DNA of 30,494 nucleotides from a virus. The notes under the pieces were generated by a model. It was given only the letters and a program-made list of their open reading frames with translations, ran no database searches and was not told the origin of the DNA. The stretch covers positions 1-30,494 of the IMG/VR virus record IMGVR_UViG_3300035199_000057; one strand, written 5' to 3'. Positions 3,594 through 30,494 of this stretch are shown here, piece after piece; the stretch's first letter is position 1, and each line of letters starts with the position of its first letter. Both the position numbers and the translations under genes were made by a program.

Positions 3594-4228
3594 TGGTTGT
3601 AACAATTTTACATCAACTTCCTTCCGGCGTGGTTGCCAGTTATCCGCCCAGTGCTGATCTGATGGCTCTGATGATGGGTGAGGGGCTGGGATGGGACGAT
3701 GGCGCCATCGCTCGGGAGGTCACGTTACGAATGACTCCCGCGACACGTAACTCATGGCCGGGATATTCCAGGGCAATATCGGAGGAATGGGCGGCAGCAG
3801 TAGGGCGCGGCGGTCTAACCGAGGCGCAAGCCCTCGATTTATTCACCCGTTTTACCAAGGAGCGCCAGGGTTCATTGGCGACATTTCTAACTAATACGGA
3901 CGATCTGCCAGACGAGTTTCTCAAGGATCGTTATTTTCGAGATGCCATTGTCTGGGACGATACGGCTCCCGCAAAATGCCGATGTAACATGGATGCATGT
4001 CGGGTCATCCATATGGACAAGATACGGTTAGCCAGGAACGCCGAGCTGGATCGAGAGGATGTCAACATGCTCCGGGCTATCGAATCTGGCGATACGTCGG
4101 AGCAATCGATCATATCCAGCAGAAAACAGGCTCTCCGGGATATTCCACAAACTTTCGACCTGACTACCGATAGTACATCCATACTCCAGGGACGATGGCC
4201 CTCGGAATTGCCAGCGCGGGAGTCCTAA
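3593..4228 (+). CDS. Probable tail fibre assembly chaperone
   Basis: A 211-residue protein overlapping the fibre gene by one base (TGATG). The C-terminal part contains SSRKQALRDIPQTFDLT followed by a WPSELP tail; the pattern of Arg/Lys-Gln-Ala-Leu-Arg-Asp-hydrophobic-Pro ending near a WP motif is typical of small chaperones encoded just downstream of fibre genes. The N-terminal ~120 residues are of unknown fold. The role, folding or trimerisation of the fibre, is inferred from this motif and position. An alternative is that it is itself a tail-tip component. Confidence 0.6.
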   Translation: MVVTILHQLPSGVVASYPPSADLMALMMGEGLGWDDGAIAREVTLRMTPATRNSWPGYSRAISEEWAAAVGRGGLTEAQALDLFTRFTKERQGSLATFLTNTDDLPDEFLKDRYFRDAIVWDDTAPAKCRCNMDACRVIHMDKIRLARNAELDREDVNMLRAIESGDTSEQSIISSRKQALRDIPQTFDLTTDSTSILQGRWPSELPARES

Positions 4229-4459
4229 GTGGCGGACCTGGCAGGGCTGGCCGAGATAGTCGGGCCAATCGGAGTCCTGGTGGTCGTCGTGGCCTGGGCT
4301 ATCATCAGCCGGCGCCACGGCAACGGCAGTTCCGACCGTTACCAGGTCGTGGTCACCAAGTTGGATTCACTCCGGGACGACATCGGGGAGATTAAGACCG
4401 ATGTCCGAGACCTCCGCGCCAACCTGGTCCGGCACCTGGAGGATCACGCCAACGCTTAG
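4229..4459 (+). CDS. Holin-like small membrane protein with coiled coil
   Basis: A 76-residue protein starting with GTG directly behind the previous stop. One hydrophobic segment (about residues 9-27, rich in Val, Ile and Gly) is followed by RRHGNG and then a charged, heptad-like helix (about 43-75). This topology, an N-terminal transmembrane helix with a cytoplasmic coiled coil, resembles one class of small phage holins and haemolysin-like proteins. It is the last gene of the late tail block and is followed by a terminator-like hairpin, the usual place for lysis genes, but no endolysin is adjacent. Holin is a topological guess. Confidence 0.5.
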   Translation: MADLAGLAEIVGPIGVLVVVVAWAIISRRHGNGSSDRYQVVVTKLDSLRDDIGEIKTDVRDLRANLVRHLEDHANA

Positions 4460-4496
4460 ATAGAATTCCATCTCATCTCTTTCACCTCCTAGGAGC

Positions 4497-4534
4497 GGCC
4501 CCGGCGGATTCGGCACCCACCGGGGTCGTTGCTA
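4497..4534 (+). terminator. Weak intrinsic terminator-like hairpin ending the late operon
   Basis: GGCCCCGG (4497-4504) can pair with CCGGGGTC (4520-4527) around a 15-base loop, but the following bases are only moderately T-rich. It resembles a degraded copy of the strong GCCCCGGC terminators at 17314, 18007 and 18440, and like them stands just upstream of the conserved promoter element. Confidence 0.45.
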
Positions 4535-4550
4535 TTTGGCGTCATCCAAT

Positions 4551-4620
4551 ATCAACGAGTTTTGCAAATTGGTATAGAAAAAGCTTGACAGTTTATGGCG
4601 GTGTGCCTTATAATATACAT
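4551..4620 (+). promoter_or_regulatory. Promoter P1 of the repeated phage promoter family
   Basis: The conserved upstream element ATCAACGAGTTTTGCAAATT begins at 4551. It is followed by TTGACA (4585-4590), an 18-base spacer and TATAAT (4609-4614) continuing ATACATAG. Sister copies are at 7259, 16886, 17348 and 18051. It should drive the early block starting at 4648. Confidence 0.88.
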
Positions 4621-4647
4621 AGTCAATCAAACAGGAGGAAATCAACC

Positions 4648-4836
4648 ATGACGACAACCATCAGCATCCCCGAGGGAACCATCGTCGGACGGATGACCGG
4701 CGACAAGGTGACTCCGGTCACCCTGGCCGGGAGCGTCTACGTCGAGGCATACCGCGACTATGACGGGTCGTGGGTCTACAGCGTCGGCAAGCAACAGTAC
4801 TGTTGCGCTGGAGGACTGGCGACAGTCCTCGCCTAA
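4648..4836 (+). CDS. Small protein of unknown function, first gene after promoter P1
   Basis: A 62-residue protein starting at ATG 4648, nine bases behind a strong AGGAGGA. An in-frame TTG further up lies inside the -35 box of P1 and cannot be the start. The sequence is beta-rich, with two adjacent cysteines near the C-terminus (QYCCAGG) and no recognised domain. A 7-bp inverted repeat (4811-4830) ends the coding region just before the TAA. As the first gene behind a strong promoter it is probably an early protein, perhaps acting on host functions, but nothing in the sequence proves that. Confidence 0.7.
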   Translation: MTTTISIPEGTIVGRMTGDKVTPVTLAGSVYVEAYRDYDGSWVYSVGKQQYCCAGGLATVLA

Positions 4837-4894
4837 ACGGTGAGCCAGCCCTTCGGGGCCGTAACCCACAACAAGAGCCGGTGGCAAGTCCGGC
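4811..4894 (+). other. Run of three RNA hairpins across a gene end and the next leader
   Basis: Three stems follow one another: GAGGACT/AGTCCTC (4811-4830), GCCC-UUCG-GGGC (4848-4859) and GCCGG/CCGGC with an 8-base loop (4877-4894). The last is followed by the GAGGAGGAGG ribosome-binding region of the gene at 4918. They could slow RNase decay or control translation; there is no U tract, so termination is unlikely. Confidence 0.5.
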
Positions 4895-4917
4895 CAAACA
4901 GAGGAGGAGGAGACGAG

Positions 4918-5262
4918 ATGCTAGGAAACATTTACTGCACCATCCACCGGGACACCGTCAGAGAGGTCAACGTCATCGTTGGGGAGATAACCGAGGAACA
5001 ACAGAAGAAGCTAGAACGGAAAGTCAGCCGCGCCATGAGCGCAGGACTCCAGGTCGAATGGCCGGACGGATCGCGCCAGTGGATCGACATCCATCCGCTC
5101 TACAACTTCAACGAGTCGGCGGCATCTGGGTACACTTGGGACGCCAGTGGCGACCGTATCAAATGCGAGTACATCCGAAACACTCTAGCAAGCGACGGCG
5201 ACACAATCTCCAAGGAGGTCATCAAGACCCGGTTCGTAAATTACGACAAAGCCTTCGCATAA
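4918..5262 (+). CDS. Protein of unknown function upstream of hammerhead ribozyme 1
   Basis: A 114-residue protein; the ATG at 4918 follows a purine-rich GAGGAGGAGG leader and is preferred to an upstream in-frame GTG. It is a mixed alpha/beta, moderately acidic protein with a helical EEQQKKLERKVSRAM segment (about residues 26-40) and several aromatics (WPDG, WIDIHPLYNF). No domain is recognised. Its stop codon TAA (5260-5262) merges directly into the first hammerhead ribozyme, so its mRNA would acquire a 3' end 52 bases downstream of the stop when the ribozyme cuts. Confidence 0.72.
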   Translation: MLGNIYCTIHRDTVREVNVIVGEITEEQQKKLERKVSRAMSAGLQVEWPDGSRQWIDIHPLYNFNESAASGYTWDASGDRIKCEYIRNTLASDGDTISKEVIKTRFVNYDKAFA

Positions 5263-5264
5263 CC

Positions 5265-5318
5265 CGCCCTGACGAGGCCCGGTGGCTCCGGGCCGAAACT
5301 CCCTCCGGGGAGTAGGCG
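5265..5318 (+). ncRNA. Hammerhead ribozyme 1 (type I)
   Basis: All core elements are present in order: stem I 5' strand CGCC (5265-5268), CUGACGA (5269-5275), stem II GGCCCGG/CCGGGCC with loop UGGCU (5276-5294), GAAA (5295-5298), stem III CUCCC/GGGAG closed by a UCCG tetraloop (5299-5312), UA (5313-5314), then GGCG (5315-5318) closing stem I. The expected cut is between A5314 and G5315. Stem I is the open stem, so this is type I. The 3' product would begin 11 bases before the AAGGAGG (5326-5332) of the next gene. Confidence 0.92.
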
Positions 5319-5339
5319 ATAAGCCAAGGAGGAGATGAG

Positions 5340-5468
5340 ATGGCAACTAAGACGGGCAAATGCCCCAGGTGCGAAGCCAAATTTCCCAACACCAAGATGG
5401 GACGGATACAACTAGCAAGCCATTGGGCGAAGTTGCAGAACCAAAGTGATCCAGCCCATACGGCATAA
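5340..5468 (+). CDS. 42-residue zinc-finger-like peptide between two hammerheads
   Basis: A short gene with a strong AAGGAGG seven bases before the ATG. The product has CPRC at residues 8-11 and histidines at 28 and near the C-terminus (DPAHTA), a plausible single C2H2-like or treble-clef zinc site, with a Lys/Arg-rich N-terminal half. It lies exactly between hammerhead 1 and hammerhead 2, and both ribozyme sequences start at the stop codon of the gene before them with the same bases (ATAACCCGCCCTGACGAGG). Cleavage at both sites would free a 206-nt RNA carrying only this gene. Function unknown; nucleic acid binding is possible. Confidence 0.75.
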   Translation: MATKTGKCPRCEAKFPNTKMGRIQLASHWAKLQNQSDPAHTA

Positions 5469-5470
5469 CC

Positions 5471-5524
5471 CGCCCTGACGAGGCCGGATGGTTACCGGCC
5501 GAAACTCCCTTCGGGGAGTAGGCG
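5471..5524 (+). ncRNA. Hammerhead ribozyme 2 (type I)
   Basis: Same architecture as ribozyme 1: CGCC (5471-5474), CUGACGA (5475-5481), stem II GGCCGG/CCGGCC with loop AUGGUUA (5482-5500), GAAA (5501-5504), stem III CUCCC/GGGAG with UUCG (5505-5518), UA (5519-5520), GGCG (5521-5524). The cut is expected after A5520. Stem II is one base pair shorter than in copy 1 with both strands changed together, and the tetraloop differs (UUCG against UCCG): changes that preserve pairing. Confidence 0.93.
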
Positions 5525-5548
5525 ATAAACCAAGGAGGAGGACAGGGA

Positions 5549-5794
5549 TTGACCATGCAGTCATTAGATCAAAACATTAGACTCCTACGGGACAGGTGTC
5601 AGAAACAAAGAGCGGATTGGTTGAAACTCAGTGCATGGCAACGCCGCAAACGAAAGCAAGACTCGGGATATCATGCATTTATCATGGGTGAAGAATTTGC
5701 TTATTCCGTAGTCATTGGCCTTATCAATAGACAGGGCAACGAAGAAGAAATGCAAAAGTTCATCGGACAGTTGGTAGGGGAGAGCAGTGAATAG
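5549..5794 (+). CDS. Small basic protein of unknown function
   Basis: An 81-residue protein directly behind hammerhead 2. Two starts are possible: TTG 5549, seven bases after GGAGG (5537-5541), or ATG 5555, thirteen bases away; the TTG has the better spacing. The N-terminal half is Arg/Lys-rich (RLLRDRCQKQ, WQRRKRK) and probably helical. The C-terminal half is acidic and ends two bases before the ATG of the next gene. No known domain. It would be translated from the 3' product of ribozyme 2 with the short leader GGCGAUAAACCAAGGAGGA. Confidence 0.65.
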   Translation: MTMQSLDQNIRLLRDRCQKQRADWLKLSAWQRRKRKQDSGYHAFIMGEEFAYSVVIGLINRQGNEEEMQKFIGQLVGESSE

Positions 5795-5795
5795 G

Positions 5796-6182
5796 ATGAC
5801 AACCCGCGACAAGGTTATTCAGATACGGGCGGAGCAACCCAACGCCCACGCCGCCCAGATAGCCCGGATCATCGGCGTGACCAGTGGGCGGGTCTACCAG
5901 ATACTCCAGGAGCTAGGTCTAGCCACGACCATCCCCGGAGCGAAGGGCCGCCCACGCCAGAAGGCCGCGCTATGGGTCAGCCGTAAGGCCAAGGCACTCC
6001 GCATCAGGAAGCGGTTGGAGTCGGGACAGGCATACACCGAGGCGGATGGGACGGTCTGGTGGTTCGTCACCGACCTGACGCCTCAGTGGGGCCAGGTGAT
6101 CGTCTCCACATGGTCCGGCGCGGTCAAGACCGGCGAGAGGGTATATCCCGGCATCGACGCCGCCCTGGAAGCGGAGGTCTAG
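5796..6182 (+). CDS. Helix-turn-helix protein, possible early regulator
   Basis: A 128-residue protein; ATG 5796 is used, although a GTG at 5787 overlapping the previous stop is also possible. Residues about 18-42 form a helix-turn-helix (AAQIARIIGVTSGRVYQILQ) of the winged or AsnC/MarR-like sort, preceded by RDKVIQIRAEQPN. A basic stretch (KGRPRQK, RKAKALRIRKR) follows, then a beta-rich C-terminal domain with WWF and WGQV. It is likely a DNA-binding regulator. It is a candidate for recognising the element repeated in the five phage promoters, but that link is only inferred from its being a regulator in the early block. Confidence 0.7.
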   Translation: MTTRDKVIQIRAEQPNAHAAQIARIIGVTSGRVYQILQELGLATTIPGAKGRPRQKAALWVSRKAKALRIRKRLESGQAYTEADGTVWWFVTDLTPQWGQVIVSTWSGAVKTGERVYPGIDAALEAEV

Positions 6183-6183
6183 G

Positions 6184-6399
6184 ATGTACTGCATATCATG
6201 TGGCAAGAAGGGAGTCCATTGGCCCAAGAATAACCCGAAGGCTTGTTCGATGAAGTGTCTGGCTTTCCGGGTACTGGGCGAATATGGCTCCGGCGGCGAC
6301 GGGTTTTATTGTCCTGATTGCGGGTTGGATATCGACTCAGACCATTGCGATATAAGCGGCTCAAGACTTGAATCATCATGGGAGGAACGCGAGAAATGA
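6184..6399 (+). CDS. Small cysteine-rich zinc-binding protein
   Basis: A 71-residue protein with CISC near the N-terminus (residues 3-6), a central CSMKC and CPDC plus a later HC pair: enough ligands for two zinc sites. It starts one base after the preceding stop codon. The layout resembles small phage proteins annotated only as zinc-finger hypotheticals. The last codons overlap the start of the next gene (ATGA at 6396-6399). Function is unknown. Confidence 0.7.
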   Translation: MYCISCGKKGVHWPKNNPKACSMKCLAFRVLGEYGSGGDGFYCPDCGLDIDSDHCDISGSRLESSWEEREK

Positions 6400-6636: not shown

Positions 6637-7245
6637 ATGTCACAACAAGTCAAAATATGTATACCGTACTATGTCGGGATGTTTACTGATGAGTTTACAG
6701 AAGCGATCGACCGAATAAAATCACCTCGTGAATTGATCGTTGAGTCCATTAGTCATTCACAAGCTAATGAGTTTGTGTTCCATCATCACTACCTACACCG
6801 ACGTTTATATATTGCTCGGAATGTCTCATATGGCCTTTACGCTGGAGGTTTTTGTGTTGGCGTTGCGATGTTTGGTTACCCTGTGTGGACCACTTATCAA
6901 GGGTTGGTCCCACCGATGGCGCCAGCAGAATGCCCCGAACTGTTACGGCTTTGCACAGTGGGGGGGCTACCTAAGAACTCAGAGTCATGGTTTATCGCAC
7001 GATGTATAAAACGGATGATCCCCGACTGGAAACGGGAGACTGGTGTGAGCCTAAAATGTATTACGTCCTTTTGTGACCATAGCATGGGCTTTTTGGGTGC
7101 GTTATATCGTGCATCGAATTTTGAAGAATACCGGAAGACCGAAGGGCGTCCAGCAAACCCAGGTTTGCCACATGGTAAATGGGGAGCTAACACGGCATCA
7201 GACAAAAGCAGCAAGACGATGTATGTTTATTTCCTTAGTCGATAA
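6637..7245 (+). CDS. Mom-like DNA adenine modification protein (GNAT fold)
   Basis: A 202-residue protein resembling the Mu Mom / phage acyltransferase-like family, which in Mu converts adenine to a carbamoylmethyl form and protects DNA from restriction. Diagnostic blocks are HHHYLHRR (49-56), LLRLCTVGGLPKNSESWFI (102-120) with the Arg-Leu and Lys-Asn-x-Glu-Ser pattern, and ITSFCDHSMGFLGALYRASN (142-161) with the Asp and YRASNF end. The gene is clearly richer in A and T at third positions than its neighbours and has no Shine-Dalgarno in front of its ATG; both suggest recent acquisition and special translational control. The substrate is inferred from the family only. Confidence 0.75.
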   Translation: MSQQVKICIPYYVGMFTDEFTEAIDRIKSPRELIVESISHSQANEFVFHHHYLHRRLYIARNVSYGLYAGGFCVGVAMFGYPVWTTYQGLVPPMAPAECPELLRLCTVGGLPKNSESWFIARCIKRMIPDWKRETGVSLKCITSFCDHSMGFLGALYRASNFEEYRKTEGRPANPGLPHGKWGANTASDKSSKTMYVYFLSR

Positions 7246-7258
7246 ATAAGCCCATCGA

Positions 7259-7330
7259 TATTAACGAGTTTTGCAAATTGCTATATAATCGCTTGACAAT
7301 GGATGCCGTATCCCTTATAATATACATAGT
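7259..7330 (+). promoter_or_regulatory. Promoter P2 of the repeated phage promoter family
   Basis: TATTAACGAGTTTTGCAAAT (from 7259) is followed by TTGACA (7293-7298), a 17-base spacer and TATAAT (7316-7321) with the shared ATACATAG continuation. The leader GTTAAGTAAGGGAGGGACC carries the ribosome-binding site for the gene at 7351. Confidence 0.9.
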
Positions 7331-9871: not shown

Positions 9872-10663
9872 ATGAGCGTCAAGATAATGTCCCAGGTCTG
9901 GGAGTTGGACATCGACCACAGCGAGATGATCGTCCTTCTGGCTATGGCCGACCACGCCGATGATGACGGCCAGAACTGTTATCCCTCCAACGCATACCTC
10001 GCCTGGAAGACCGGGTACTCCGACCGCCAGGTCCGCCGAGTCCTCCGGACCCTAGAATCAACCGGCATCATCACCAGGGTCGCCCATGAAGAAGGGGGTC
10101 GAGGACTCGCCACCGAGTACCGCCTAAACCCGGAAAAGGGGGACAAAAAGTCCGCCTTTATGGCAAACAAAAGGCGGACATCCACGACACTAAAGGGGGA
10201 CATCCTGTCCGAAAAGGCGGACATGGGTGTCCATAAAGGCGGACATAGCTATGTCCCCCCAACCATCAGTAACCATCAACTAAACATCAAGGAACCATCA
10301 GGGGACGGCGCCACCGCCAATTTCGATTACCCCGAATGGTTCCAACCGCTGGTTGGTCTGAAGGGATTCAAGGCGACCGCCCACAAGACCGCCATCATCT
10401 CCGTCCGGGAAGGCTGCGAGGAGGCCGGCGTCAACGAGGCCGACATCGTCCGGGCCTTTGCGGACTATTACCGGGACGGCGGGAGGGCGACCAACGGCTG
10501 GAGCGATCCGGTCGCCGCTTTGGTGAGGACTCTCCCCGTCCAGATCAACAAAACCAGAAAAACCGGGAAAACCGGCAATAGTCCGCCGCCGTCCGATGTT
10601 GACCCGGTCGAGAAACACCGCCAAGCTGCCGCCGATATCGCGGCCAGGAGGGCCAACCGATGA
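9872..10663 (+). CDS. Winged-helix replication initiator, with origin inside the gene
   Basis: A 263-residue protein with GGAGGGAGGAGGACG ahead of its ATG. Residues about 15-75 form a helix-turn-helix/winged domain (DHSEMIVLLAMADHADDDGQ, then YPSNAYLAWKTGYSDRQVRR, TLESTGIITRV), the usual N-terminus of phage replisome organisers. A low-complexity, basic linker (about 87-135) is encoded by the iteron array at 10135-10246. The C-terminal domain (about 150-225) is helical and may contact the loader encoded next, with which it overlaps by four bases. The arrangement parallels lambda O/P and similar initiator/loader pairs. It should bind the iterons and bring in host DnaB through the DnaC-like protein. 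Confidence 0.82.
   Translation: MSVKIMSQVWELDIDHSEMIVLLAMADHADDDGQNCYPSNAYLAWKTGYSDRQVRRVLRTLESTGIITRVAHEEGGRGLATEYRLNPEKGDKKSAFMANKRRTSTTLKGDILSEKADMGVHKGGHSYVPPTISNHQLNIKEPSGDGATANFDYPEWFQPLVGLKGFKATAHKTAIISVREGCEEAGVNEADIVRAFADYYRDGGRATNGWSDPVAALVRTLPVQINKTRKTGKTGNSPPPSDVDPVEKHRQAAADIAARRANR
10135..10300 (+). repeat. Probable replication origin: iterons inside the initiator gene
   Basis: Direct copies of AAAGGSGGACAT start at 10170, 10192, 10213 and 10235, spaced 22, 21 and 22 bp (two helical turns), with another at 10135 and an inverted copy at 10150-10159. Most GGACA halves face a TGTCC or GTCC, and the last forms the perfect palindrome GGACATAGCTATGTCC (10241-10256). Four copies of AACCATCA or AAACATCA follow at 10261, 10271, 10282 and 10293, 10-11 bp apart. 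Regular iterons followed by a second repeat set inside a replication gene is the classical lambdoid origin design. Confidence 0.85.
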
Positions 10664-29320: not shown

Positions 29321-30494
29321 AATAACAATCACAGCCGACCCTAAGAATGCCGAGGCCGGATTCAAGAAGGTCAAGTCGGGGTTCCAGGGGATGAAGGATA
29401 GCATCTTGAAAAACAAGAAGGCTATCGGTCTTGGCGTGATGGCTATGGGAGCCGGCATCGAAGGGTTGGCCCGGTCGCAAGCGCCTTTGACCGAGGCTAC
29501 CAAGAAGCTGGCGAACCAGACCGGGTTCGCGGAAGACGCCATTCGAGATATGGCGACCGAACTTTCTAACGCTACGTTCCCTCTAGAGTCGGCCTTGGCT
29601 CTTATGGAGACCGGCGCACAACAGGGGCTAGAAAGTGCCGCGGCCCTCAAAGAGTACGCCAATTTTTGGGATACGGTCGGGGATGCTACCGGCCTTGGAG
29701 CGGAGGAGTTAGCCAAGGCGGCGGCGGGATTAAAGGCGGTCGGGGTATCGGCCGGCGAGGAGGGTGAGCTTCTCAGTGCCTTCGGACTCATCCAGAACGA
29801 AAGCACCCTGTCCGTAAAAGAGTTTATTGACATGGTGGGCAAGCTCGCTCCCGAGATGACCGCGATGGGCCTGTCGGTGGATGACGCGGCCACCTTCGTG
29901 ACCACGATGCAACGGGAGCTAGGTTTAACCGCCAAGGTCGCCCAAGCCGAGTTCAAGGTTGCCCTCCAACAATCCACGACCGGTCTTGACGGTGTGAAAG
30001 AAGCCCTTGGACTAACCGATGCCCAGCTTGAAAAATATCGGCAGAAACTAGAGGAGTCATCCGGGGTCATCCAAGAGAACGCCGACGCTCACATGGAGAC
30101 CAAGACTAGCCTCGAAAAGTTGAAGTCGGCGTTCGACGACGTGATATTCGCGAACGGGGAATGGCTAGCCAAAGCCGCCGAGATATCCCCACTCCTCCTC
30201 GCGACCGGCCCAATCATCGCCGGGTTCAATATCATATTAGGATTCATGACTCCGGTCCTAACGGCGGTCAAGGCTCAGATGATTGCCCTCAACCTATCCA
30301 TGGGTCCGATTGCCCTAGTCATCATAGGAATCGCCGCCGCGATAACCGCCGCAATCTTGATCTGGAAGAACTGGGACAAGATAATCCTCGCCTTGAAGAA
30401 AACCCTGGAAGTCCTCAAGGCCACTTTCAAGACCGTTTTCGACTTCATAAAAGAGATCGTCTCCAAAGTATTCGCCAAGATAACTGACCTATAC
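29304..30494 (+). CDS. Tail tape measure protein, N-terminal part (continues at 1)
   Basis: Starts at ATG 29304 behind GGAAGAGG and runs off the window end in frame; across the circular joint it continues to 755, giving 586 residues. It begins MANQVEITITADPKNAEAGF, typical of tape measures, followed by a helical minor-tail/TP901-like core (GLGAEELAKAAAGLKAVGVS, LAPEMTAMGLSVDDAATFVT) and hydrophobic segments (LLLATGPIIAGFNIILGFMT, ALVIIGIAAAITAAILIW) that may insert in the host membrane during DNA entry. At roughly 1.5 angstrom per residue, the tail would be under 100 nm. Confidence 0.93.
   Translation, partial: MANQVEITITADPKNAEAGFKKVKSGFQGMKDSILKNKKAIGLGVMAMGAGIEGLARSQAPLTEATKKLANQTGFAEDAIRDMATELSNATFPLESALALMETGAQQGLESAAALKEYANFWDTVGDATGLGAEELAKAAAGLKAVGVSAGEEGELLSAFGLIQNESTLSVKEFIDMVGKLAPEMTAMGLSVDDAATFVTTMQRELGLTAKVAQAEFKVALQQSTTGLDGVKEALGLTDAQLEKYRQKLEESSGVIQENADAHMETKTSLEKLKSAFDDVIFANGEWLAKAAEISPLLLATGPIIAGFNIILGFMTPVLTAVKAQMIALNLSMGPIALVIIGIAAAITAAILIWKNWDKIILALKKTLEVLKATFKTVFDFIKEIVSKVFAKITDLY
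30310..30494. repeat. Terminal direct repeat (right copy), circular-genome overlap
   Basis: Same 185 bases as 1-185 with T at 30437 in place of C at 128. Removing one copy closes a 30,309-bp circle. Confidence 0.95.

Follow-up and report, generated by a model that had tools for sequence, protein, structure and literature searches.

The window, that is the whole stretch of 30,494 nucleotides analysed here, is a contig of siphovirus type, encoding portal, capsid, tape-measure, terminase and replication functions. Its two ends carry a repeat of 185 nt that is 99% identical (1-185 and 30310-30494), which makes it a circular or terminally redundant contig that is probably near complete. Behind a single 12/12 promoter, genes and RNA elements follow one another in the order A, twister, B, first hammerhead (HH1), C, second hammerhead (HH2), D and a helix-turn-helix-like gene (Table 1). 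Each of the three spacers between genes A to D holds one predicted ribozyme, one of them a twister and two hammerheads. The preliminary description had located the hammerheads between early phage genes; one operon of short genes behind a strong promoter is what stands of this, and the early timing is dropped. A forward terminator was sought within the array and none was found; with no T-run either, a terminator role of the ribozymes was discarded. Genes B to D have no Pfam, PHROG or PADLOC match, except that gene C has a zinc-finger match below threshold, and a role of the cassette genes in defence or anti-defence was rejected, as Pfam and PADLOC (genes A to D) and PHROG (B to D) gave it no support. 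Just 3' of the array lies a Mom-like DNA modification gene (6637-7242; Pfam Mom, E 1e-23), suggestive as the sole hint toward such a role. Near-identical strong promoter blocks (CTTATAATATAC) occur five times in the window, at 4608, 7315, 16949, 17405 and 18108, and probably belong to one regulon.

Table 1. Features of the ribozyme-containing operon (positions in the window)
Feature	Position	Strand	Remarks
Promoter TTGACA-18-TATAAT (12/12)	4585-4614	+	same -10 block recurs at 7307, 16941, 17397, 18100
Cassette gene A, 62 aa, no assigned function	4648-4836	+	in L003 too; others in L004, L006, L010, L013, L018
Type-P5 twister (predicted)	4839-4895	+	spacer preceding gene B; predicted cut U4862^A4863
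Shine-Dalgarno of gene B	4901-4910	+	
Cassette gene B, 114 aa, no assigned function	4918-5262	+	92% identical in L006; replaced in L003, L004
HH1, predicted type I hammerhead with pseudoknot	5263-5326	+	ribozyme proper 5265-5318; predicted cut after A5314
Shine-Dalgarno AAGGAGG of gene C	5326-5332	+	11 nt 3' of predicted cut; abuts pseudoknot strand
Cassette gene C, 42 aa, weak zinc-finger-like CPRC motif	5340-5468	+	this phage only, among those compared
HH2, predicted type I hammerhead with pseudoknot	5469-5532	+	ribozyme proper 5471-5524; predicted cut after A5520
Shine-Dalgarno AAGGAGG of gene D	5532-5538	+	11 nt 3' of predicted cut
Cassette gene D, 81 aa, no assigned function	5549-5794	+	start TTG 5549 or ATG 5555
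Conserved helix-turn-helix-like gene	5796-6182	+	closes variable array in close relatives

Both hammerheads are complete, with all elements in the order given by the preliminary description. In HH1, stem I is formed by CGCC (5265-5268) and GGCG (5315-5318) over 4 bp, the core CUGACGA occupies 5269-5275 and GAAA 5295-5298, stem II is a perfect helix of 7 bp (5276-5282/5288-5294) and stem III has 6 bp (ACUCCC-UCCG-GGGAGU, 5298-5313), followed by A5314 as H17. The corresponding parts of HH2 are a 4-bp CGCC/GGCG stem I (5471-5474/5521-5524), the core CUGACGA at 5475-5481, a perfect stem II of 6 bp (5482-5487/5495-5500), a 6-bp stem III with a UUCG loop (5504-5519) and A5520 as H17. The invariant residues CUGACGA, GAA with A15.1, U16.1 and A17 are all present in the two copies, whose stems measure 4/7/6 and 4/6/6 bp, stems II and III being closed and stem I open. 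Re-reading of the sequence also bore out the earlier account of the spacing between the copies (206 nt), of the differences in stem II length (7 or 6 bp) and tetraloop (UCCG or UUCG), and of the position of the elements: the stop codons of the preceding genes have their last base at 5262 and 5468, where the hammerheads begin, and the predicted cuts fall 11 nt upstream of AAGGAGG in both, a placement expected of a ribozyme insulator, which would in addition have to make expression independent of the upstream sequence. The minimum free energy folds of bare HH1 and HH2 are precisely the three-stem hammerhead. Longer stretches fold differently: at HH1 (5250-5340) the Shine-Dalgarno sequence pairs with the end of gene B, and at HH2 (5455-5545) the fold is no better than those of shuffles. 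Sequestration of the Shine-Dalgarno sequence by the end of gene B was rejected as a general switch, since it is seen in HH1 and not in HH2.

A chance match of the hammerhead pattern in GC-rich sequence would be conceivable for the bare core, which, taken without stems, is expected about once per window. A generic descriptor, in which only the core was fixed and the stems were required, was run on the 30-kb window and on 150 shuffles of 30 kb. The window gave HH1, HH2 and no other match, while the shuffles gave none with all stems of at least 4 bp and two, across all 150, with stems of at least 3 bp. Besides, a covariance model of 22 hammerheads from other phages, with near-copies of the window left out, scored HH1 at 56.9 bits (E 3e-14) and HH2 at 55.3 bits (E 1e-13), values somewhat flattered because the pattern by which the hammerhead set was retrieved shares part of stem II. 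The set is therefore not random, which affects the models and the position statistics; the test on 150 shuffles is unaffected by this bias. Chance is refuted by the shuffles with three stems (0/150), the two E values and the preservation of the elements in relatives, and its probability is negligible.

Loop II of each hammerhead is complementary to the 3' flank. In HH1, UGGCU (5283-5287) can pair with AGCCA (5322-5326) just 5' of the Shine-Dalgarno sequence, and in HH2 UGGUU (5489-5493) with AACCA (5528-5532), so that the fourth pair of this putative pseudoknot changes from C-G to U-A with both sides altered. The preliminary description made no mention of it. In a set of 65 distinct hammerheads, most of them on other contigs, loop II and 3' flank had a mean Watson-Crick match of 3.02, compared with 2.04 +/- 0.19 for shuffled partners (0/500), and other combinations seen include UAGCU/AGCUA, GAGA/UCUC, UGAU/AUCA and CGGC/GCCG. 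The stems covary as well, with 56 double-changed cells across phages versus 20 in shuffles. Covariation of both stems and pseudoknots indicates that the structure is selected, beyond what homology alone would give. A loop II pseudoknot of this kind is critical for cleavage speed (Perreault et al. 2011, PMC3088659), and the predicted one supplies the tertiary contact expected next to a stem I of 4 bp. The assignment of HH1 and HH2 as type I hammerheads is hence strongly supported by the full core, the covarying stems and pseudoknot and the scores of the other-phage model.

The Rfam models behave otherwise. The type I model had been expected to score both copies, which proved mistaken: RF00163 reached at best 14.4 bits, in HH2, against a cut-off of 34, with no match to HH1, and an Rfam scan of the full window found neither. 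According to its printed alignment the type I model expects a stem III of 2 bp. In a control, six phage contigs rich in descriptor hammerheads contained one Rfam Hammerhead_1, at 33.7 bits. Since Rfam fails for almost all such phage hammerheads, this test says little; an Rfam score is a library criterion and not a defining feature of a hammerhead or a twister. The RAGATH-1 hammerhead (RF03152) gave 15.3 bits versus 56.3 at HH2, where AUAA is present and the upstream conserved hairpin was not seen by eye. Rfam matches to HgcC, PhotoRC-I, narK, JPX_2, anti-hemB and flavivirus xrRNA, all of 10-14 bits, were put down to chance or hairpin similarity. As lineage-specific models find many ribozymes missed by Rfam, ribozyme-punctuated operons in phage genomes are probably much under-counted.

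The spacer before gene B, which the preliminary description passed over, holds a candidate twister of type P5. It consists of P2 (GG 4839-4840 with CC), P1 (4848-4859) and the P4 hairpin (4877-4894), together with the conserved GAG, UAA and CAAG blocks and two pseudoknots, T1 (CC/GG) and T2 (AC/GU). All these parts are common to the Rfam type-P5 family (RF02684), from which the window copy differs in its CC/GG T1 pair, its short stems and its score, 22.9 bits (4839-4893) versus a cut-off of 37.6, with E 0.0036 when the spacer alone was searched. A covariance model of 11 twisters, all from other contigs, scored it at 60.8 bits (E 5e-15), the rest of the matches being at noise. T1 is complementary in 39 of 39 parsable twisters, in five pair combinations, and T2 in all 18 aligned ones (GC 11, AU 5, CG 1, GU 1); covariation was found in P1, P4 and T2. 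The evidence that HH1, HH2 and this twister are ribozymes is strong, and their cleavage activity is predicted from it.

When 4 kb of the operon was compared with 50,697 phage records no match was obtained. The same operon, with twister and hammerhead, is present in three contigs (L003, L004 and L006). At the corresponding place L010, L013 and L018 have one or two twisters, and L026 and L053 have three or four hammerheads. Alignment of the window with L004 is confined to four blocks: 4219-4641 (84%), with the upstream gene and the promoter; 4839-4920 (92%), with the twister; 5256-5340 (98.8%), with the hammerhead; and 5795-6186 (84%), with the helix-turn-helix gene. The intervening genes differ. 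In the relatives, blocks of ribozyme and ribosome-binding site persist at 92-99% identity with unrelated genes between them, a degree of identity that recombination alone could produce. The ribozyme class is also exchanged: the gene 'LESGEWLEVECDCDNW' is preceded in L006 by a hammerhead, and in L013, L017 and L018 by a twister. In L007, a contig fragment otherwise without similarity to the window, 78 nt are identical to 5261-5338. There (6911-7004), 23 nt equal to the start of the conserved helix-turn-helix gene, as in L006, are followed by the hammerhead, and the two meet at a 7-nt AACCCGC common to the hammerhead 5' edge; on its sequence, this junction is a recombination joint. A further contig otherwise without similarity to the window (L060) has twister, gene and hammerhead in the same order. 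Two phages (L053 3701-3776 and L026 2584-2658) keep hammerheads in which an additional U separates core A9 from stem II, and the activity of these variants is doubtful.

The position of the ribozymes relative to genes holds beyond the close relatives. Among the 65 distinct hammerhead loci of the pattern-retrieved set, a stop codon lies at the 5' edge in 54 (6.0 at random positions in the same contigs), a Shine-Dalgarno sequence with ATG just after the cut in 52 (4.7 at random) and both in 44 (0.8 at random). Twisters have both in 36 of 44 cases. In 14/65 hammerheads (L024 to L096) the catalytic CUGA supplies the UGA that stops the upstream gene, and most of the other stop codons lie no more than 4 nt from stem I; with the stop inside the catalytic CUGA, a terminating ribosome would cover the core. 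On the minus strand of L078 (5072-10254) nine twisters occupy nearly every successive spacer of one operon, which includes amidoligase_2 and glutamine amidotransferase genes. This array is also present in L082, L084 and L090, with similar arrays in L075 and L086. Six of the L078 twisters pass the Rfam cut-off, and copies in L078, L075 and L086 reach up to 57.3 bits.

Taken together, these elements are probably genuine self-cleaving ribozymes that cut the operon mRNA once per spacer and make up a linker enabling gene exchange. HH1, HH2 and the twister would each cleave the polycistronic mRNA in their own spacer. The upstream message would carry a stable ribozyme fold as its 3' end, shortly after the stop codon, and the downstream message would begin with a 5'-OH a few bases ahead of a strong Shine-Dalgarno sequence. 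Ribozyme and ribosome-binding site would thus constitute a standard linker freeing each gene from its neighbour, which would let short accessory genes recombine in and out without upsetting the adjacent genes. The succession of stop codon, ribozyme and Shine-Dalgarno sequence is taken as a gene-swap linker because the linkers are conserved while the genes turn over, the classes are swapped and L007 contains the joint. What is observed is the anatomy of the ribozymes, their covariation and position, the conserved linkers beside changing genes, the exchange of classes and the recombination joint; cleavage activity, separation of the mRNAs and the benefit of insulation are what we infer. The mRNA-processing role, already put forward in the preliminary description, gains support from position (44/65 vs 0.8) and from unrelated ribozymes in the same slot, and is here a proposal; cutting into single-gene pieces is the most economical reading of the placement and of the interchange of unrelated classes. 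The points against it are that H17 is A and stem I only 4 bp in both hammerheads, the Rfam scores below cut-off and the altered folds of the longer HH1 and HH2 stretches. More tentatively, hammerhead and twister may be interchangeable parts of a plug-and-play format, inserted between stop codon and Shine-Dalgarno sequence to give single-gene messages and fast swapping of accessory genes. If true, this would be the long-sought reason why unrelated ribozymes cluster in phage genomes.

Active ribozymes could also serve mainly as recombination seams for the trading of cassettes, with cleavage as a side effect or as a self-preserving property of the block. This would agree with the 78-nt identical hammerhead block in the otherwise dissimilar L007, with the 23-nt joint ending there in the AACCCGC of the hammerhead 5' edge and with linkers at 98.8% next to a flanking gene at 84%. 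However, covariation of stems and pseudoknot implies that structure is under selection, twisters replace hammerheads in the same slot without common sequence, and the twisters of the L078 array are too divergent among themselves to recombine readily; we regard seams as the main function as unlikely. Still less likely is a gating of expression, in which a terminating ribosome would keep the ribozyme unfolded until upstream translation slows, or a ligand or protein would act as a switch. The overlap of the stop codon with the catalytic CUGA (14/65) or its closeness to stem I, the pseudoknot strand abutting the Shine-Dalgarno sequence and the capacity of uncut HH1 to pair that sequence with the last part of gene B would suit gating, but compact phage genomes would yield the same overlap without it, the pairing is absent from HH2 and a conserved aptamer-like extension was not seen.

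There is, finally, a slight probability that the elements are degenerate or structural leftovers without self-cleavage, for instance hairpins with a role in message-end stability or in blocking exonucleases. The activity of HH1, HH2 and the twister is predicted only, their Rfam scores are low, and two phages (L026, L053) have kept the variant whose core is followed by an additional U, all of which leftovers would explain. Yet HH1, HH2 and the twister have kept all catalytic bases and the pseudoknot, and unrelated catalytic folds occupy the same slot, whereas plain hairpins need no cores. Self-cleavage of the operon mRNA in each spacer remains the preferred reading.

Natural and engineered elements of similar placement exist. 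RiboJ is an engineered hammerhead insulator between promoter and gene that cuts the message just 5' of the ribosome-binding site; the hammerhead cut predicted here is likewise just upstream of the ribosome-binding site, but the units are natural and separate the genes of an operon. In cluster K mycobacteriophages, start-associated sequences reportedly recur as conserved elements directly 5' of many small genes, and to our knowledge they are not known as ribozymes; likened by description only, they share with the present blocks their repetition, conservation and location 5' of small genes.

Tandem phage hammerheads and the clustering of hammerheads with twisters are already known (PMC3088659; PMC10085705 quoting earlier work). 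Hammerhead clusters flanking single genes of phages or prophages include the Agrobacterium ardA array and the HHphage of haloviruses HF1/HF2 (Perreault et al. 2011, PMC3088659, Fig. 3); mRNA processing into single-gene messages was proposed for phage hammerheads in the same year (PMC3088659), and cleavage was shown for three other phage hammerhead arrays, in vitro and in E. coli (PMC3088659). Like the present locus, those arrays have tandem hammerheads between short phage genes of varying identity; a loop II pseudoknot occurs in about 40% of those hammerheads, and the HF1/HF2 ones cut 13 nt before the start codon (PMC3088659). Unlike them, the operon described here has a twister alongside the hammerheads and one ribozyme in each successive spacer, near-identical blocks of ribozyme and ribosome-binding site stay while genes swap among close relatives, and one and the same gene can be preceded by a hammerhead or by a twister. 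Hammerheads and twisters also co-localise near Mu-like phage genes, for a reason given as unknown (Roth 2014 and Weinberg 2015, as quoted in PMC10085705). There, too, different self-cleaving classes are neighbours and accompany the same genes; as far as that quotation goes, the co-localisation is statistical and spans gene neighbourhoods, whereas here an ordered operon of stop codon, ribozyme, Shine-Dalgarno sequence and start codon is accompanied by evidence of exchange. The open-access papers searched describe no cassette operon of mixed ribozyme class with one ribozyme per spacer and exchange among phages, and this linker and cassette architecture is new here. The role of hammerheads and twisters has been called open (PMC6155905), in bacteria as in phages (PMC6155905, PMC10085705), and these loci give a testable answer: one ribozyme per spacer, of interchangeable class, with linkers conserved while genes swap.

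The processing prediction is checkable in a cultured phage, Salisaeta icosahedral phage 1 (SSIP-1; JN880423, L097 in our set). Two hammerheads, of 51.5 and 27.0 bits, lie at 2577-2652 and 3000-3073 of L097, in the successive spacers ORF16-17 and ORF17-18, with predicted cuts near 10,270 and 10,690 of JN880423, and are unannotated in the record. A scan of genome contigs gave no host for the phage of the window and yielded two further contigs with hammerheads of the same kind, L095 (2359-2407) and L096, whose bins are a Clostridia and an Acidobacteriaceae genome.
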